From contig JABMPE010000216.1 in the NCBI GenBank assembly GCA_013203845.1, forward strand, positions 1 to 56,064: a stretch of 56,064 bases of DNA, given 5' to 3'. The translations under genes were made by a program, and so were the position numbers. Shown in pieces: positions 27,278-35,897 of this stretch (positions within the stretch are counted from its first letter, which is position 1; each line of letters opens with the position of its first letter). A model generated the notes under the pieces. That model was not told the DNA's origin and did not search any database. It worked only from the letters and a program-made list of their open reading frames with translations. Source of the DNA: Rhodopirellula sp. Its GTDB lineage: Bacteria; Planctomycetota; Planctomycetia; Planctomycetales; Planctomycetaceae.

Positions 27278-28342
27278 CTATTCCTGCGGCTGGACTTTCC
27301 GAGGAACTCGCATCTCAAACGTCAGCAGCTGATCGTCGCGACGAACAACGAGCCGTAGCGTATCCCCGGCTTCGAGTCGACCAAAGGCTGCTGAGAGATC
27401 CCGCACCGACTGAACAAGGTCGTCATTCACGAACAACACCAGATCATCCGGCTGAAGCTTCGTGTTCTGAGCGGCTGACCCTTCGACAAGAGCATTCACG
27501 TAGGCGGGTGTTCGAAACAGAACGTCCGAAACCATGACGATGCCGAAATCGACCGGCGAATACCGCAGTTCGGCTTCTGGTTCGTCAAGTGGCTGCCGTT
27601 GAGATCGGAAATTGCCGGAGATGATTTCCTCGATCGCCGTCGTCAGCTCGGCAATCGGAATCGAATAGTTCAACCAGGTATTAGTTTCGGCGTTGCGAAC
27701 TTCGCGACCGATCATGCCGAGCAGCTTTCCTTCGCGAGTTGCCAGCAAGCCTCCCGCTGCGCCTGAGTTGTTAGTAATGGCATCGACGACGTACACCGCG
27801 CCGTCATAAGGGATCTCGAAAGTACCGCGGCGGGTTTTCAGTTTCGTCTTTGCGGCGACAACTCCGTGGAGCACTGAAACGGCTTCGTCACCGGTCGCGA
27901 CTTTGAACATATTGCTGAATCCGAGCACACGCGTGCCTTCACTCGCCGAGCCGATACCTGTGGTCAGGTCGAAATACGGCAGGTCTAACTCCTGGTCGTT
28001 GGCAACGATTTTCAGGACCGCCAACTCAAGCTGAGGCTCGGCCCCCAGCACCGTTGCGGTGAATCGTCGGCCGTCGTTCAGCACGACGATTACTTCGTTG
28101 GCGTCGAGCACGTGACTCCAGACCGTGACGATATGCCCTTGTTTCGAAACCAGAAAGCCGCTGCCGAACGCGGCGAGACCCTGCAGGCCGCCCGCTCCGA
28201 AGATCTTCACCATGCGCGGAAGAACGAAGTCGATCGTCTGAGCGCTGGAGCGAGTTCCAGCGGCGACGGCAGACTCGGGCATTGCCCCTGCGATGGCAGC
28301 GACAACGGCGAGATTCATCGCAAACTTCTTGACGTGAAACAT
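27278..28342 (-). CDS. HtrA-like trypsin/PDZ protein with altered catalytic residues
   Basis: A 354-residue exported protein from ATG 28342: a signal peptide (MNLAVVAAIAGAMPESAVAA), then a trypsin-like domain and a C-terminal PDZ domain (ALVEGSAAQNTKLQPDDLVL). The catalytic His is present (TVWSHVLD, about residue 77). Where HtrA proteins have the catalytic Asp (DLAVLKI), this one has Glu (QLELAVLKI). The nucleophile motif GNSGGP is changed to NNSGAAGG; the Ser is kept. It may be a weak protease or a pseudo-protease that binds peptides. It lies 71 bases downstream of the 1108-residue protease gene on the same strand, so the two are probably an operon. A GTG three codons upstream is an alternative start. 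Confidence 0.8.
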   Translation of the reverse strand: MFHVKKFAMNLAVVAAIAGAMPESAVAAGTRSSAQTIDFVLPRMVKIFGAGGLQGLAAFGSGFLVSKQGHIVTVWSHVLDANEVIVVLNDGRRFTATVLGAEPQLELAVLKIVANDQELDLPYFDLTTGIGSASEGTRVLGFSNMFKVATGDEAVSVLHGVVAAKTKLKTRRGTFEIPYDGAVYVVDAITNNSGAAGGLLATREGKLLGMIGREVRNAETNTWLNYSIPIAELTTAIEEIISGNFRSQRQPLDEPEAELRYSPVDFGIVMVSDVLFRTPAYVNALVEGSAAQNTKLQPDDLVLFVNDDLVQSVRDLSAAFGRLEAGDTLRLVVRRDDQLLTFEMRVPRKVQPQE

Positions 28343-28413
28343 GGCGATCACTTTTAACGAGGCAGGCTTCCGTTCGCAGCAGGCGACAATCGGAACGGTT
28401 TCGAACCTTCACG

Positions 28414-31400
28414 TCAACTGCTGATGGACAGGCCCGCCCGCAGCCGGATTCTCGCAGCTGCACGAGCGGCCCCATATTGAACAGTCGTTGCCTGCGAGAC
28501 GCTCGACAGTTGATCGAGAACTGCCAGACTTTCCGGCGAACCGATTTCCGTCAGCAGGTCGATGATAGCCTTCTGGATCTTTCGATCGGATTTCGCCAGC
28601 TGTTCAACGAGCTGATGCTCGCCGTCCGGTCCAACACCGATTTTCTGCAGCGTTTGAGCGGCCATGAACTGCAACTTTGACTCCGGGTCAAAAAACAGCT
28701 TCAGCATTCGCGGGATACTTCGCTCAGTCGCTCGCTTCTGCAGAGCCATCATGCCCTGATGCTGAACGGCGAAGTTGGGATCATCGAGCGTCTTCAGCAA
28801 TGCGTCTTCCAGGGCGTCGCGTTTGTAGTCGGACGACTCTCCGAGTTTCATCAGCGCGCTTGTCCGGGCATAACCACTTTGATCCGGCGCGGCAGCCATC
28901 GCTTTCAAGACAGCCTCGACATTGACTGCCGCCGGGTCTGTTGCCGATGTGTTTCCGCCTGCCGTGGCGACAGCTTTTTCCGCCGCGACGCGAGCTTTCA
29001 CACTGTCCAGCGAACGTGTTGCGTAACTCCTGCGGAAGAAGTCCTTGCCACTCACGATGGATTCCAGCGGCTCTACGGACTTTTCGCCGCCAATTTCCTT
29101 CAGAATTTCGCAAGCCGCCTGGAACTGCTGCTGATCTTTTTCGAAGAGCAGAGCGATGACGGGTTCTTCAGCGACTTTTCCGAATTTGCCTAACGCACTC
29201 TTTACATAATGTGCCGCAGACCGATTGCTGCGAAGAGTATCCAGCAGTGGTCCGATCGCCTGCTCGTCGTGCAAGGCTCCCAGAGTCTGAATCGCACTTT
29301 GCACGACCGGAAACATCGAATGTTTCAGCTGGGCAATGACAGCCGGCACGCAGTTCGGCGTCCCCCACTTTTCGAGAGCCCCCAGCGCGCCCCGCACGGT
29401 GAGGTACTGTTTCGAATCCAGCAGGTCGACCAGCAGTGCTTCCACTTCCGATTGCCGCTCAGGCAGCACGACCAACTTTGCCAGCGAATTGAGTTGCGAC
29501 GACGGATAGCCACCCTTGACGTTCTCTTCCCTGATCTTCTGCAGGAGAGCGTCGAGTTGTTCGCCCACCGGCACTTCAGTTTTGTTGGCAGCCTTGATGG
29601 CATTGTCGTGTTCGACTTTCGCTTGAGCGATCGCCAACTCACGTTTTCGTTTTGCGACAACAGCGGATTCCTGACGCTTCACGGAGATCCTGACCGGAAT
29701 GCGAACGGTCTCTTTCTCTTCGTTTTTCTCAAAGTGATGGTCGAACTCGAACGACTCAACCAGGCCCACGCGGCGGCTGAAAACGACTTCGCCCTTACCG
29801 CTAATACGAAAATAGGGAGCATCGTCATTGTCGAGCGTGGTCAGCGTGAATGTCTTCTCAAGGACAACCCGGTCGTCGCTGTCGGAAACGATGCGGTACT
29901 GGTGAACTTCCTGGGCATCAAATTCTTTGACCGTCTTCGGAGCAAACGGATCGGCTACCCGTCCGCCAAAGCGAGGAAGTCGCGGAAGAGGAATTCGCCT
30001 TCGCCCGAACGGAGAGTCGTTCTGCTGAATGGTCACCTTAATACTGTTTCGAACCGTCCAGCTACTGCGGCCCAACTGGTCGAACTGATGAATCGTCAGC
30101 AACGACATCGGTCCTGCGAGAAACGGCAATTGATTCGGGGCCGAGAATGACTCGACATCTCCGTGCAGATCAACGTTCAGTGAGCCCGAGTTAAACGTCA
30201 TGTTCGGAAACGAAAACATGAGACGTTGCTGGCTGCTGGTTTCGTTCTTCGTCTGAAAGCTGCCGCTGGTCCGAATGTTGACCAGTTCGCCCGACACCTT
30301 TTGGGGATCGATCGTCACCGTGATCAACGCCACCGCTGGCGAGACGGCTTCGACGAGACTCGGGCCATCGAGCTCTTTCTCTGGAATACTGTCGAGCGGC
30401 GAAACATTTTTCGCTTTCAGCAGTGCCAGTACCCGCTCCGCCGGAATGCAAAACCCGACCCGGGTCAGCTCCAGTCCGACCAGCTTGGAACTGGCGACGC
30501 CGAGCACGTGCCCGCGACCGTTAAAAACGGGGCCGCCGCTGTTTCCTGGATTGACCGCCGCATCGATCTGAAACCGTTTCCCTTCCGCGCGTTCCACGAC
30601 GCCAGCGACGATTCCACGAGTTACCTTGATGCCGTTTCCGAGCACCGTCGACAGCGGAAACCCGATCGCTCGCACTTCTTCTCCAATGCGCACCTTGGCA
30701 GAATCTGCCAGCGACAGACTTTGAAGCTTGTCAGCGTCGATTTTCAGTAGCGCGAGATCGTCGTTCGGTTCGACGGCCACGACTTCCGCGGCATACGTTT
30801 TGCCGTGAAGTTGAACGTCGATCCGGTCTGCCCCCTGGATGACATGAGCACAAGTCATCAGGTAACCGTCGGCGCTGACGACAAAGCCGGTTCCGGTTCC
30901 TGTTTCCGGCTTCTTTGGTTTCGAGCTGGCCGCCGAGTCGGATTTCGCTGGCTGTTCATCACAGGTCAGCTCGACCGTGCCCGAGACCGTTTGCTTTTGA
31001 TCATTCACCGTTGCTGTCATGCTCACGGTGTATCCTTGAATCTCGCCAGGATTCCACCGGTAAATCAGCGGCCTTCCGCGTGTCGAGGTTTTCACCTGAG
31101 GAACCGTCTGCTCGGCGTCAGGTTTTTCTTCAGGAGCAGAAACGGGAGTCGCGGCAGCGACCGGTGTCACCGCCGCCGGCTCTGTTTCAGCTGCCGTTTC
31201 TGTTGCAGGCATCGGCTCTGTTGCAGGCCTCGGCTTGCGCTCCGGTGAAATAACTGGAGGCTGCGGCTCGGGTTTCTCTCCCGGAACCAGAGTCGGCGGC
31301 GAAGCCGGTGCGGCAATTATTGGAACGCTTTCCGTTGGTGGTGTTGCGGCGGCAGATGGTTCCGGTGTGACGGCAGCAACCTCGGTGACATCAGGTTCGG

Positions 31401-31740
31401 AATCGACAATCGCTGAAGCAGGATCCTCGTCTGGTCGTTCCTCGCCGGTCGGCTCCGGTGCTGAACTTGCCTGTTCAAGCACGGGTGGGGTCGCGATGGC
31501 AGGAGTGACGACCGGCGCCGCGTCGGATTGATCGTCCAACGCAAGTTTGGCATCAGTTGTGTTCAAAGCGACGACGTCGGGTGTCGGGGTGTCAAAGATG
31601 AGTCCAAAGACGAAGAAACCTGTCGCCACAACCAGGCTGCAAATCACCGCAGCGCTGGCGGCCAGCAGAATCATGGTTCGTCCGTCGTGGTTTTCTTCGA
31701 GTTCTTCGTAGTCAGGCCGTGATTCGCTTCTCTCGCGCAT
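28414..31740 (-). CDS. Membrane-anchored HtrA-type serine protease with HEAT repeats
   Basis: An 1108-residue protein. After a 22-residue cytoplasmic start there is one membrane helix (about 23-48). A long Pro/Ala/Glu-rich linker (about 50-225) follows, then a trypsin-like domain with an intact triad: H299 in TCAHVIQG, D328 in NDDLALLKI and S401 in NPGNSGGPV. Residues about 450-760 are unrecognised beta-rich sequence. About 770-1100 are HEAT-type helical repeats (AIGPLLDTLRSNRSAAHYVK, SIPRMLKLFFDPESKL). There is no PDZ domain. It is probably a periplasmic protease whose HEAT part selects substrates or partners. The following gene is a smaller, altered HtrA-like protein. Confidence 0.88.
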   Translation of the reverse strand: MRERSESRPDYEELEENHDGRTMILLAASAAVICSLVVATGFFVFGLIFDTPTPDVVALNTTDAKLALDDQSDAAPVVTPAIATPPVLEQASSAPEPTGEERPDEDPASAIVDSEPDVTEVAAVTPEPSAAATPPTESVPIIAAPASPPTLVPGEKPEPQPPVISPERKPRPATEPMPATETAAETEPAAVTPVAAATPVSAPEEKPDAEQTVPQVKTSTRGRPLIYRWNPGEIQGYTVSMTATVNDQKQTVSGTVELTCDEQPAKSDSAASSKPKKPETGTGTGFVVSADGYLMTCAHVIQGADRIDVQLHGKTYAAEVVAVEPNDDLALLKIDADKLQSLSLADSAKVRIGEEVRAIGFPLSTVLGNGIKVTRGIVAGVVERAEGKRFQIDAAVNPGNSGGPVFNGRGHVLGVASSKLVGLELTRVGFCIPAERVLALLKAKNVSPLDSIPEKELDGPSLVEAVSPAVALITVTIDPQKVSGELVNIRTSGSFQTKNETSSQQRLMFSFPNMTFNSGSLNVDLHGDVESFSAPNQLPFLAGPMSLLTIHQFDQLGRSSWTVRNSIKVTIQQNDSPFGRRRIPLPRLPRFGGRVADPFAPKTVKEFDAQEVHQYRIVSDSDDRVVLEKTFTLTTLDNDDAPYFRISGKGEVVFSRRVGLVESFEFDHHFEKNEEKETVRIPVRISVKRQESAVVAKRKRELAIAQAKVEHDNAIKAANKTEVPVGEQLDALLQKIREENVKGGYPSSQLNSLAKLVVLPERQSEVEALLVDLLDSKQYLTVRGALGALEKWGTPNCVPAVIAQLKHSMFPVVQSAIQTLGALHDEQAIGPLLDTLRSNRSAAHYVKSALGKFGKVAEEPVIALLFEKDQQQFQAACEILKEIGGEKSVEPLESIVSGKDFFRRSYATRSLDSVKARVAAEKAVATAGGNTSATDPAAVNVEAVLKAMAAAPDQSGYARTSALMKLGESSDYKRDALEDALLKTLDDPNFAVQHQGMMALQKRATERSIPRMLKLFFDPESKLQFMAAQTLQKIGVGPDGEHQLVEQLAKSDRKIQKAIIDLLTEIGSPESLAVLDQLSSVSQATTVQYGAARAAARIRLRAGLSISS

Positions 31741-32338: not shown

Positions 32339-33637
32339 CTAAACACCACAGGCTACCAGGGCAGCGGCCTGACCGAAGGCGGTAACATTGACGGTCAGGA
32401 AGAGTTTGTTGTCGATCTTCAACGGCTCACCATGCACAACGTTCAGTTGGCACGCATCGTCGGGGGTTGAGTAGTTGAGCGTTGCGGGGACGACTCCGTG
32501 CTGAAGCCCGATCAGTGATGCTGCCAGTTCGAGTGTTCCACAAGCAGCGCCCGAGTTACCGATCGCGCTCTTGAAAGCAGTCACCGGAACCGTTGACGCT
32601 GACGCACCGAAGACCTGATGAATAGCCTTGGCTTCGTCGATGTCCGTCTGGCGGCTGCCGAGTCCGTGCGCGTTGATGTGTCCGATGTCCGACGGCGAGA
32701 CACCCGCTCGTGCGAGTGCTTTGCTGATCGCTCCGACCAGCGCGTCCTGTGTTCTGGGCGCACCATTAATGTCGATCACACAGCATGAAGCCGCGCCGAG
32801 AATTGAACCGAAAATGGCGGCACCGCGAGCTTTGGCGTGTTCCTCTTCTTCAAAGATGAACGTGCAGGCTCCTTCACCAGCGATCTGTCCGCGTCGCGAA
32901 GCGTCGAACGGTCGCGACCAGGTGGCGGGATCCGCATCGTCGTACTGAGCCATCTCGTCCCACAATGCGGCGTGCAGACACTTTGTCGGCTGAATGCGCG
33001 AACCGGTCGAACCGGCCAGCATCATATCCGCTCGGCCCGTCGAGATGATGGCGAATGCTTCGCCCATCGCGCTGTTGCCAGAAGCTTCGGCGAGAGTCAA
33101 CGAGTTATTGGGGCCTCGCGCGTCGGCGTGAATTCCGATGTGGCAGGCCGGCATGTTTGGCAGGTACTTCAGTAACCAGAGTGGTTCCATTCCGGCCAGG
33201 CCTTCTTCGCCCCAGCGATCGAAATTGAACTTGTGATTCTCGTCGCAACGGAAGACGCCTTCGCTGAGAACGTCCGGCGTGCTGAACATTTGATTGGCAC
33301 CAAAGTCGACTCCCAGACGCTCGTGGTTGATCGCAGCGATGTCGAGTTCGCTGTTGGCCAGCGCGAGATGAGCCGACGCAACACCCAGCTGAATCTCGCG
33401 GCACATCACTTTGATGCTCTTGCGTTGAGCCTGCAGGTACTCTTTCTTCGCGGTCTTCTCGGTGAAATCTTTGACTTCACCAGCGACGTGCCCTGGCAGC
33501 GCCGATGCCTCCAGCAATTCGATTTTCGAGACGCCCGACTTCTGAGTGGCGATTCCGTTCCAGAATTCATCCCGACCGATACCAATCGGAGAAATAATAC
33601 CGGCACCAGTGACGACGACGCGTTTTGCTTCAGACAT
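32339..33637 (-). CDS. Ketosynthase (FabF-like) homologue lacking the catalytic Cys
   Basis: A 432-residue protein of the KAS I/II thiolase fold, full length (MSEAKRVVVTGAGIISPIGI at the start, GQAAALVACGV at the end). The nucleophile motif TACxSG is here LAEASG, putting Glu184 in the place of the active-site Cys. The first active-site His is present (H324 in NAHGLGSRQTD), as is Lys355, but the second His of GHxxGAAG is Asn361 (IGNSGAACG). The family normally condenses acyl-ACP with malonyl-ACP; without Cys it cannot load an acyl chain. Chain-length-factor subunits of type II polyketide synthases also lack the Cys (Gln there) and work as partners of an active ketosynthase. No such partner or acyl carrier protein is adjacent. 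Confidence 0.85.
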   Translation of the reverse strand: MSEAKRVVVTGAGIISPIGIGRDEFWNGIATQKSGVSKIELLEASALPGHVAGEVKDFTEKTAKKEYLQAQRKSIKVMCREIQLGVASAHLALANSELDIAAINHERLGVDFGANQMFSTPDVLSEGVFRCDENHKFNFDRWGEEGLAGMEPLWLLKYLPNMPACHIGIHADARGPNNSLTLAEASGNSAMGEAFAIISTGRADMMLAGSTGSRIQPTKCLHAALWDEMAQYDDADPATWSRPFDASRRGQIAGEGACTFIFEEEEHAKARGAAIFGSILGAASCCVIDINGAPRTQDALVGAISKALARAGVSPSDIGHINAHGLGSRQTDIDEAKAIHQVFGASASTVPVTAFKSAIGNSGAACGTLELAASLIGLQHGVVPATLNYSTPDDACQLNVVHGEPLKIDNKLFLTVNVTAFGQAAALVACGV

Positions 33638-33868: not shown

Positions 33869-34255
33869 TCAGGACTCTGAGACAAATCGCTTCCGGATTG
33901 ACTCGACGCGTCGTCGATTGACTCCGAGATCAGAGTGGCCAACTTTCGACGCTGATCGTACCTGGATCTTCCCGGTCGAACGTTCCAGGCGGAATTCGAG
34001 CACGTCCTCAAAACGGAAAAGCAGCGTTCGAACCCGGGCGTGAAGATAACTTTCATTCTGACTGACGATCGTCGTCCGAGGGTGAGACTTCACAATATCA
34101 ACCAGCCGAGCCCAGGCGGCGTCCGGTGATCCGGTAATGGCTAGCGGCTCGATCGAGTGCTGGCTGCCTGGAAATTCGCTGCAGACGCAGTTCGGTGAGT
34201 TCGGGCAGGGACGCAGCTTGCCATTGTCCAACCGGACTTGATCGTGATCTGTCAT
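33869..34255 (-). CDS. DUF1499 protein
   Basis: A 128-residue protein of the DUF1499 family: LRPCPNSPNCVCSEFPGSQHSIEPL at the N-terminus is the family signature, with the conserved CPxSPNCVxS, and YLHARVRTLLFRFEDVLEFRLE / IQVRSASKVGHSDLGVNRRRVESIR form the rest. Function is unknown. There is no signal peptide here, though many family members are exported. It is a single gene; 231 bases separate it from the ketosynthase-like gene downstream, and that gap shows nothing recognisable. Confidence 0.85.
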   Translation of the reverse strand: MTDHDQVRLDNGKLRPCPNSPNCVCSEFPGSQHSIEPLAITGSPDAAWARLVDIVKSHPRTTIVSQNESYLHARVRTLLFRFEDVLEFRLERSTGKIQVRSASKVGHSDLGVNRRRVESIRKRFVSES

Positions 34256-34421: not shown

Positions 34422-34449
34422 CATTCGCTATTTTGCATTCGCTATTTTG
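34422..34449. repeat. 14-base tandem duplication across a stop codon
   Basis: CATTCGCTATTTTG occurs twice head to tail and a third partial copy (CATTCGCGTT) continues into the ceramidase gene, whose stop codon lies in the second unit. It appears to be a recent slippage or duplication. Confidence 0.7.
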
Positions 34450-35809
34450 CATTCGCGTTCTGTTTCGCGAGTCGATGGACAGTCGACACGATCTGGTCTT
34501 CCAGGCCGGCCTTCCACTTCGACGGCAACTGATAAACGATCATCGACGAGTCGCCTTCGTAGCCACCTTCTTCCAGAACTCTTTCGGACGGAATGTAGGC
34601 CATGACGTCGTTGGCGTAGCCGGTCACCCAGGTCGAGTTCTCACCGAGTTCGTGTTTCAGCCGGAGCTGATACTCGACGACGAGTTCGCCGCCGAGTGCC
34701 ACCCAGTTGACTTCTTTCCCGAGCTTCCAGACCTGAACCGGGTACGGCCACGACTTCGGCAGCGAGCCGTCGCGTTCCAGTTCGCTAAGCAGCAGCTTCG
34801 CGCGGCCACTGGTGTAGCGGCTGGAATTTTTGAGGTCCGTCTGGAGTTCCTCTTGCGTGGGGAGCCGGTGGAATTCCAATTCGATTTCCTCGAACGAAGA
34901 TGCCAGTTCGCCAGTGACCGGCTGCATTGGTTCATCGAGAACGTCGTTCACCGACACGGCGAGCATTCTCCCGTACTTCTCAGCGAGTTCGATTTTCCGC
35001 CGCGGCAGTGGATTCTGATCAGCTCCTCCGCCGGTGAAGAACATCGCAACGGAATCCGGATGTCGATCTTCCAGGTAAAGCTGAGCGAAGCCCGCGTAGT
35101 CCCCGCACCATTCGTAAAAGCCGAGCGTCGTGTTGTGGCAGGCGTATCCGAAGACGACGCCTCGCAGTTTCGAGCCATCCGGCGTTTCGATCTTCAGAAC
35201 CGGCACCTGATGGTCGTACGGGCCGATGCCTTTGGGTGTTCGGCGGTTCGCGGCGAAGTGACAGACTCCGCTGCCGGTCGAAAGTCTGGCCGGTTTGAGA
35301 TCTGCAATGGCGGCGTCGACCGCCTCGATCACTTTCTGGTTGAGCCAGACCTGGTATTCGCGGACCTGTTTCCAGTCGGCGTCCTGCATGTCGAGCATGT
35401 AGCTCAGCCTGTCGTCGAGCGCGGGTCCGCAGTGCGTGTGCGAGCACGCGATCATCAGGCCGCTTCGAGGCAGGCCGTGTTTTTTTTCGGCAGCCGCCGA
35501 GACGGTTGTCGCCATGTTCTTCGGGACTCCCACCAGGTCGGTGGCGACAAACACGACAGTCTCGCCGTCAGCATCCCGAAGGGCCGTCGCCCGAGCGTAC
35601 AGGTCGTGAACCTTGCCTTCGGCAGGGTGAGCTCGACCGCCGTAGCCAGACATCCATATGAACTGGGGCGGCGTGATGACCACTCGGGAAACGCCGGCCT
35701 GCCAGGCACCGTTGCCGTTGATGCCTTTGGATGCGTCGGCAGAATGAGCTGACAAATCGAACGTCGTCGGAATCAGAAGCAGCAAGGTCGTGAGCAGAGC
35801 CTGTCGCAT
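34442..35809 (-). CDS. Neutral/alkaline ceramidase-like secreted hydrolase
   Basis: A 455-residue exported protein (signal peptide MRQALLTTLLLLIPTTFDLSAHSA). The catalytic part resembles the neutral/alkaline non-lysosomal ceramidase N-terminal domain: WQAGVSRVVITPPQFIWMSGYG at the start, DLYARATALRD, then the zinc-ligand region CSHTHCGPALDD and later GYACHNTTLGFYEWCGDYAGF and FFTGGGADQNPLPR. Real ceramidases hydrolyse N-acyl sphingosine at a zinc site. Many planctomycete members of this family have unknown substrates, and the usual C-terminal immunoglobulin-like domain is reduced. The start is ATG 35809 with GGAG upstream. It is divergent from the GT39 gene. Confidence 0.85.
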   Translation of the reverse strand: MRQALLTTLLLLIPTTFDLSAHSADASKGINGNGAWQAGVSRVVITPPQFIWMSGYGGRAHPAEGKVHDLYARATALRDADGETVVFVATDLVGVPKNMATTVSAAAEKKHGLPRSGLMIACSHTHCGPALDDRLSYMLDMQDADWKQVREYQVWLNQKVIEAVDAAIADLKPARLSTGSGVCHFAANRRTPKGIGPYDHQVPVLKIETPDGSKLRGVVFGYACHNTTLGFYEWCGDYAGFAQLYLEDRHPDSVAMFFTGGGADQNPLPRRKIELAEKYGRMLAVSVNDVLDEPMQPVTGELASSFEEIELEFHRLPTQEELQTDLKNSSRYTSGRAKLLLSELERDGSLPKSWPYPVQVWKLGKEVNWVALGGELVVEYQLRLKHELGENSTWVTGYANDVMAYIPSERVLEEGGYEGDSSMIVYQLPSKWKAGLEDQIVSTVHRLAKQNANAK

Positions 35810-35897
35810 GGTGAGTTCTCCATTGCAGGGAGGGACAGCGTGGCTCAGCATAGCGATTCCCTCTCAAGTCCAAAGTGACTCAGGCGAATTCTGCACC

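Follow-up and report, generated by a model that had tools for sequence, protein, structure and literature searches.

Locus and protein fold

The window, meaning the whole stretch of 56,064 nucleotides of Rhodopirellula sp. DNA that was analysed, holds a single ketosynthase, a Cys-less homologue that we assign to class A of a lineage termed KSx (Table 1). The boundaries given by a first-pass annotation of the window were correct, and the gene is read on the minus strand. Outside the window, the source genome encodes five further full ketosynthases and one truncated at a contig end. A search for a promoter-like site at the window gene found none. As to the surroundings, members of the ceramidase-family cluster lie near the KSx orthologue in all four congeners fetched, and the order of the two trypsin-like proteases is conserved across the window genus.

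Table 1. Coordinates of the KSx gene, its active-site codons and its neighbours within the window
Feature	Position	Strand	Remarks
KSx class A CDS (Cys-less ketosynthase homologue)	32339..33637	-	432 aa; ATG at 33637, stop 32339-32341
Glu184 codon	33086..33088	-	Column of FabF nucleophile Cys163; structure alignments, MAFFT, codon check
His324 codon	32666..32668	-	Column of FabF His303; codon check
Lys356 codon	32570..32572	-	Column of FabF Lys335; codon check
Asn361 codon	32555..32557	-	Column of FabF His340; codon check
LWLLKY, residues 153-158	33164..33181	-	At FabF 132-137; KSx signature, proposed dimer-contact and channel segment; codon check
NVTAFGQ	32369..32389	-	In place of FabF GFGG gating loop; gate Phe and oxyanion-hole loop gone; codon check
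DUF1499 gene	33869..34255	-	Upstream of KSx, same strand, 231 bp gap; neighbour only, functional tie not implied
Ceramidase-family gene	34442..35851	-	Two genes upstream of KSx; neutral/alkaline ceramidase-family protein, PF04734, 46 bits
Two trypsin-like protease genes	27278..28351 and 28414..31740	-	Downstream of KSx; one with PDZ, one with HEAT repeats (1108 aa)

The Pfam ketoacyl-synt N and C domains span the full 432 amino acids, whereas the NCBIfam fabF equivalog TIGR03150 scored 272.5 bits against a cut-off of 493.75, and Pfam and NCBIfam searches assigned the protein to nothing finer than the ketosynthase superfamily. AlphaFold2 predicted the monomer with a mean pLDDT of 89.8 and a pTM of 0.88, and the top Foldseek matches of this model were FabF (TM 0.85-0.88). 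Identity to FabF (KAS II) is about 30%, with similar fold and length. A solved Cys-less wild-type relative was sought among known structures, where the nearest solved chains were ordinary FabF. The weakest stretch of the monomer model covers residues 110-170, with the lowest confidence at residues 153-157; reading from known structures, we take this stretch to correspond to the dimer interface and cap in FabF and KasA.

Comparison of the window gene with four congeners gave a dN/dS of about 0.06-0.08 at a dS of about 1. Since the ratio lies near 0.07 at such divergence, the protein is maintained by selection, and this value together with many invariant columns rules out a decaying pseudogene. 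The first-pass description of the fold as full length and undecayed thus holds. The protein is under strong purifying selection, yet not as an ordinary ketosynthase.

Loss of the catalytic residues

Alignment to solved FabF chains is collinear and places Glu184 under the nucleophilic Cys. A MAFFT alignment with E. coli FabF and the Cys-type paralogues of the same genome does the same, and the Cys, His, Lys and second His of its E. coli FabF row, like its GFGG, fall where expected. With the codons also in agreement, the first-pass assignments of Cys to Glu184, of the second His to Asn361 and of the retained first His to His324 were all borne out; the conserved Lys is likewise retained, but as residue 356 rather than the 355 given earlier. 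The protein is a Cys-less ketosynthase homologue. In place of the Cys-His-His triad and Lys of FabF, it has Glu184, His324, Asn361 and Lys356, and it also differs from the Cys-His-Asn triad of the KAS III fold (FabH), having KAS I/II Pfam domains and no Cys. The nucleophile, second His and GFGG gate of FabF, a loop that gates the pocket and supplies half of the oxyanion hole (PMC7138838), are all gone.

Scanning a single genome for each species yielded 441 encoded relatives; the top 80 of them and the window protein together make up the class A set of 81 sequences. Nearly all of these 80 come from Planctomycetota records, with a few titled 'bacterium', and many are Planctomycetaceae (Gimesia, Schlesneria, Planctomicrobium, Fuerstiella). 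One of them, the GTDB record L150, is titled Candidatus Kuenenia stuttgartiensis; its sequence is almost identical to the Planctomycetales records L148 and L149, and it seems to have been misbinned or misnamed.

Across these 81 sequences, the Cys column holds Glu (65/81) or Asp (16/81), the Lys column is invariant (81/81), and the second-His column holds Asn in 71 and Ser in 10, never His. The first His is kept in 65/81 and replaced by Asn, Cys, Gln or Ser in the other 16. The FabF Gly198 column is Lys in 72/81, the Phe400 and GFGG columns are altered throughout, and the Trp of LWLLKY is present in 81/81. On this alignment evidence, the acyl pocket and gate of class A itself are destroyed; of the active site, only an acidic residue and the Lys persist in every sequence, and these two could form a buried ion pair. 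The first-pass annotation had allowed that Glu184 might fall outside the Cys column or that the change might be unique to this genome; Glu184 sits in that column, and every class A sequence carries Glu or Asp there.

An active-looking sister group

In a first tree, from which the active-site columns were omitted, one branch separated all Cys-type from Cys-less rows, so that the Cys-less sequences form one supported clade; the first-pass annotation had suggested a tree to see whether Glu and Asn define a clade. An extended tree, with rows from other planctomycete families added and both the active-site columns and the LWLLK segment omitted, resolved three groups: FabF, KSg3 (motif ELEQE) and KSx (motif LWLLK). 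Even without motif and active-site columns, the window protein grouped with the LWLLK ketosynthases (SH-aLRT 99).

Four KSx rows (L179-L181, L162) retain Cys-His-Lys-His and GFGG and already carry LWLLK. The Cys-less rows together form their sister group (SH-aLRT 99, from a quick search without bootstrap); in it L182 and L184, whose Cys column holds Asn or Ser, branch first, followed by the Asp/Glu rows, among which L073 (Ser) and L055 (Gly) are exceptions. The extended tree was rooted on one chosen row, and its direction also leans on the presence of Cys in all other ketosynthases of the set. Because the Cys-His-Lys-His rows are sister to the Cys-less rows, we conclude from the tree that KSx already existed, with active-looking members, when the nucleophile was lost. 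The idea that LWLLK arose with catalytic loss as a channel plug was dropped, as active-looking KSx already have it. Natural fusions of KSx to a ketosynthase were also considered and rejected; the three long open reading frames checked each proved to be one ketosynthase with a stop-to-stop upstream extension, and one of the candidates, the 877-aa L180_7638, overlaps a neighbouring gene.

The window family has KSx as two paralogues, class A and a second type. In the source genome, the latter lies on contig C290 (L038:7123-8598), with Asp at the Cys column and His-Lys-His kept; this type forms a separate clade in the family, and no ketosynthase adjoins it. Separately, two KSx relatives on a long branch in another family (L186:7676-9733 and L187:7283-8668) carry Glu, Ser and Glu at the Cys, Lys and second-His columns, with no ketosynthase adjoining within the stretch fetched.

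Gene neighbourhood

In other planctomycete families, KSx is encoded in an operon of the order FabZ-(FabG)-ACP-FabZ-KSx-KSg3-hydrolase, in many cases joined by a GH3-type protein, and three of the four active-looking KSx rows sit directly before KSg3 in the same kind of operon. The window family has this operon without KSx, as FabZ-FabG-ACP-FabZ-KSg3-hydrolase (L166, L168, L169, L173, L174; likewise L171, without a hydrolase call). In the source genome, FabZ-FabG-ACP-FabZ lies on contig C718, where the contig end cuts KSg3 to a fragment 93% identical to the KSg3 of a congener; the primary FabF is on contig C338. L058 and L059, also of the window family, hold an additional pair of KSx-KSg3 type next to a gene for a 3-hydroxyacyl-CoA dehydrogenase-like protein. 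As a separate observation, the GH3-family protein that ends the FabZ-ACP-FabZ-KSx-KSg3 operon in other families (L061:5769-7505, minus strand; L060, L066, L070, L072) is distantly similar to OlsH, a lyso-ornithine lipid synthetase (110 bits, far below the cut-off), suggesting that the operon may make the acyl chain of an aminolipid.

Class A, as represented by the best 80 of the 441 relatives, provided 80 loci, 71 of them informative for neighbourhood. In 37/71, the gene immediately upstream, in the same orientation, encodes a Cys-type ketosynthase: 36 times FabF, preceded in most cases by an ACP gene, and once KSg3 (L117, with the KSg3 operon). No ketosynthase adjoins KSx in the other 34. Many Planctomycetaceae show the order PlsX-FabD-ACP-FabF-KSx-(NusA), which recurs more loosely in L064, from another family. 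In the window genus and its nearest kin, KSx stands apart from FabF and, in the genus, next to neither ketosynthase. The earlier statement that no partner ketosynthase is adjacent is therefore accurate for the locus and the genus but not for the family; the search for a Cys-containing partner that it recommended shows KSx often beside FabF or KSg3 in relatives. FabF linkage turns up in most subclades of class A, and 13 changes are needed to explain it on the tree, so adjacency by itself constrains the reading loosely; the pattern fits an old FabF-KSx linkage broken many times.

Comparison with known systems

In Rhodopirellula baltica, NP_866153 (RB4527) has Glu163, His298, Lys328 and Asn333, and NP_865682 (RB3714) has Asp at Cys163, both His and Ile in place of Lys (Rattray et al. 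2009, PMC2649909). The sections of that paper covered here place the R. baltica paralogues in a residue table and a tree, grouped with anammox non-canonical FabF, and give them no function, operon or lineage history. The residue change is thus already in print since 2009 and is not new. NP_866153 shares the Glu/His/Lys/Asn set of the window protein and, going by these published residues, is probably its orthologue; NP_865682 resembles the C290 paralogue (Asp, both His), but for the Ile that replaces Lys. A limited literature search found neither the KSx lineage nor its active-looking intermediates, operon history or FabF linkage.

Type II polyketide chain-length factors (CLF, KS-beta; for example actinorhodin 1tqy_B and aryl polyene ApeC) are dead ketosynthase paralogues encoded beside an active ketosynthase and ACP, KR and DH genes, as Cys-less KSx is at some of its loci, and the window protein shares their ketosynthase fold with the nucleophile lost. 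Classical CLFs, however, replaced Cys by Gln, whereas class A has Glu or Asp, and the adjacency typical of CLFs is absent in the window genus, present with FabF in part of class A and with KSg3 in other families. By sequence, the window protein scores higher against FabF (198 bits) than against 1tqy_B (102 bits), and in the trees, built from FabF, KSg3 and KSx rows, the Cys-less clade is sister to planctomycete ketosynthases that look active. The nucleophile loss therefore looks independent of KS-beta. A 2023 catalogue lists Planctomycetes among the phyla with KS-CLF pairs and contains many pairs of FAS-FAS type (PMC10132072).

The anammox proteins Kuste3606, Kuste2805 and Kuste3348, of candidate ladderane clusters, are also Cys-less and encoded near an active ketosynthase and ACP; their published residues set them apart: the Cys column holds Val, Phe or Ser, the first His is replaced by Asn or Ser, and the second by Glu or Asn. 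KSQ domains of modular polyketide synthases resemble the window protein in replacing Cys by a polar residue. KSQ uses Gln and keeps both His; the window protein has Glu184, and class A has lost the second His throughout.

Candidate functions

We consider it probable, at roughly 60%, that the protein is a non-catalytic, CLF-like subunit dimerising with an active ketosynthase, either KSg3 or FabF. Among the readings suggested by the first-pass annotation, this one is best supported by the single clade, the Cys-type neighbours and the loss of the acyl-binding and gating apparatus, features of fold, residues, neighbourhood and selection that are read from the sequences; the physical heterodimer, the identity of the partner, the shaping of its channel and the inability to catalyse are what we infer. 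The window protein would be a catalytically dead but ketosynthase-folded member of an ancient planctomycete lineage, itself unable to hold or condense an acyl chain. It would dimerise with an active Cys-His-His ketosynthase, and its LWLLKY segment would contact the partner and close or shape the end of the partner's acyl channel. Counting against such a role are the retention of His324 and Lys356, the position of window-genus KSx next to neither FabF nor KSg3, and the fact that the FabF linkage and the KSg3 interface argument point to different partners.

Between these partners, KSg3 is slightly favoured. Within one alignment segment, KSx has LWLLK and most KSg3 have E-x-E-Q-E, differing in charge, as if the halves of a heterodimer had become complementary; by analogy with FabF and KasA structures, the LWLLK and ELEQE segments may touch each other. 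The KasA acyl channel is built from helices of one subunit and one helix of the other (reviewed in PMC9519891), so altering this segment in one subunit could remodel the channel of the other. KSg3 also has the long-standing operon pairing with KSx and the L117 locus in its favour, and in the window genus (L173, L174) it keeps the E-x-E-Q-E segment although no KSx adjoins. The sub-case in which KSx instead regulates chain length or activity of the primary FabF in housekeeping fatty acid synthesis, overlapping with the main explanation, strikes us as rather unlikely. It draws on the gene order shared by many Planctomycetaceae and, more loosely, L064, on the 36/71 loci with FabF directly upstream, and on KSx distances that track those of FabF beyond PlsX and FabD (partial correlation 0.60 against 0.45 and 0.03, a weak signal from non-independent pairs). 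FabF, however, has an ordinary FabF-type segment (PFMIPKLMVN), unlike KSg3, KSx retains a segment dating from its pairing with KSg3, and the two genes are apart in the window genus.

A homodimer acting as scaffold or regulator, which would bind ACP or acyl-ACP and need no partner ketosynthase, would accord with the retained full-length fold and with the 34/71 informative loci where no ketosynthase adjoins, but we judge it improbable, as it leaves both the widespread pairing with active ketosynthases and the differing LWLLK and E-x-E-Q-E segments unexplained. New catalysis by the conserved acidic residue, such as acyl-ACP hydrolysis or dehydration, is a long shot: the invariance of this residue and Lys356 (81/81) is what a catalytic pair or a buried salt bridge would produce, yet Glu and Asp interchange, Asn, Ser or Gly stand at this position in relatives, and the acyl pocket has been lost. 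Slimmest are the chances of the decarboxylase proposed in the first-pass annotation. In KAS I/II, the His pair decarboxylates malonyl-ACP, and a KSQ-like enzyme, or one using the FabH-like pair of His324 and Asn361 with the retained Lys356, could supply an acetyl-ACP primer. Class A, however, lacks the second His in 81/81 and the first in 16/81, several members having neither, and the GFGG oxyanion loop is gone, the residue at the Cys column is acidic rather than an amide, and a Lys occupies the acyl pocket. As FabH was found above its curated cut-off in 15/15 genomes tested, among them the source genome, where true FabH genes occupy other loci, there is no gap in primer synthesis to be filled, and substitution for FabH was rejected.

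Evolutionary implications

Returning to the CLF-like subunit, we tentatively propose, at somewhat less than even odds, that a KSx-ketosynthase heterodimer evolved in Planctomycetota independently of polyketide CLFs. KSx would have lost its catalytic residues step by step (Cys to Asn/Ser or Asp/Glu, as well as the second His), KSg3 remaining active, and intermediates in which both ketosynthases look active would survive; in the window family, the disarmed KSx would have moved beside FabF and so tied a dedicated acyl pathway to the housekeeping synthesis of fatty acids. If true, KSx would be a second, independent CLF-like subunit whose active ancestor type survives in other planctomycete families, and the transition from a homodimeric ketosynthase to a KS-CLF heterodimer would become approachable through natural intermediates. 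It would also give a role to the 'non-canonical FabF' known since 2009 in Rhodopirellula and possibly to those of the anammox ladderane clusters.
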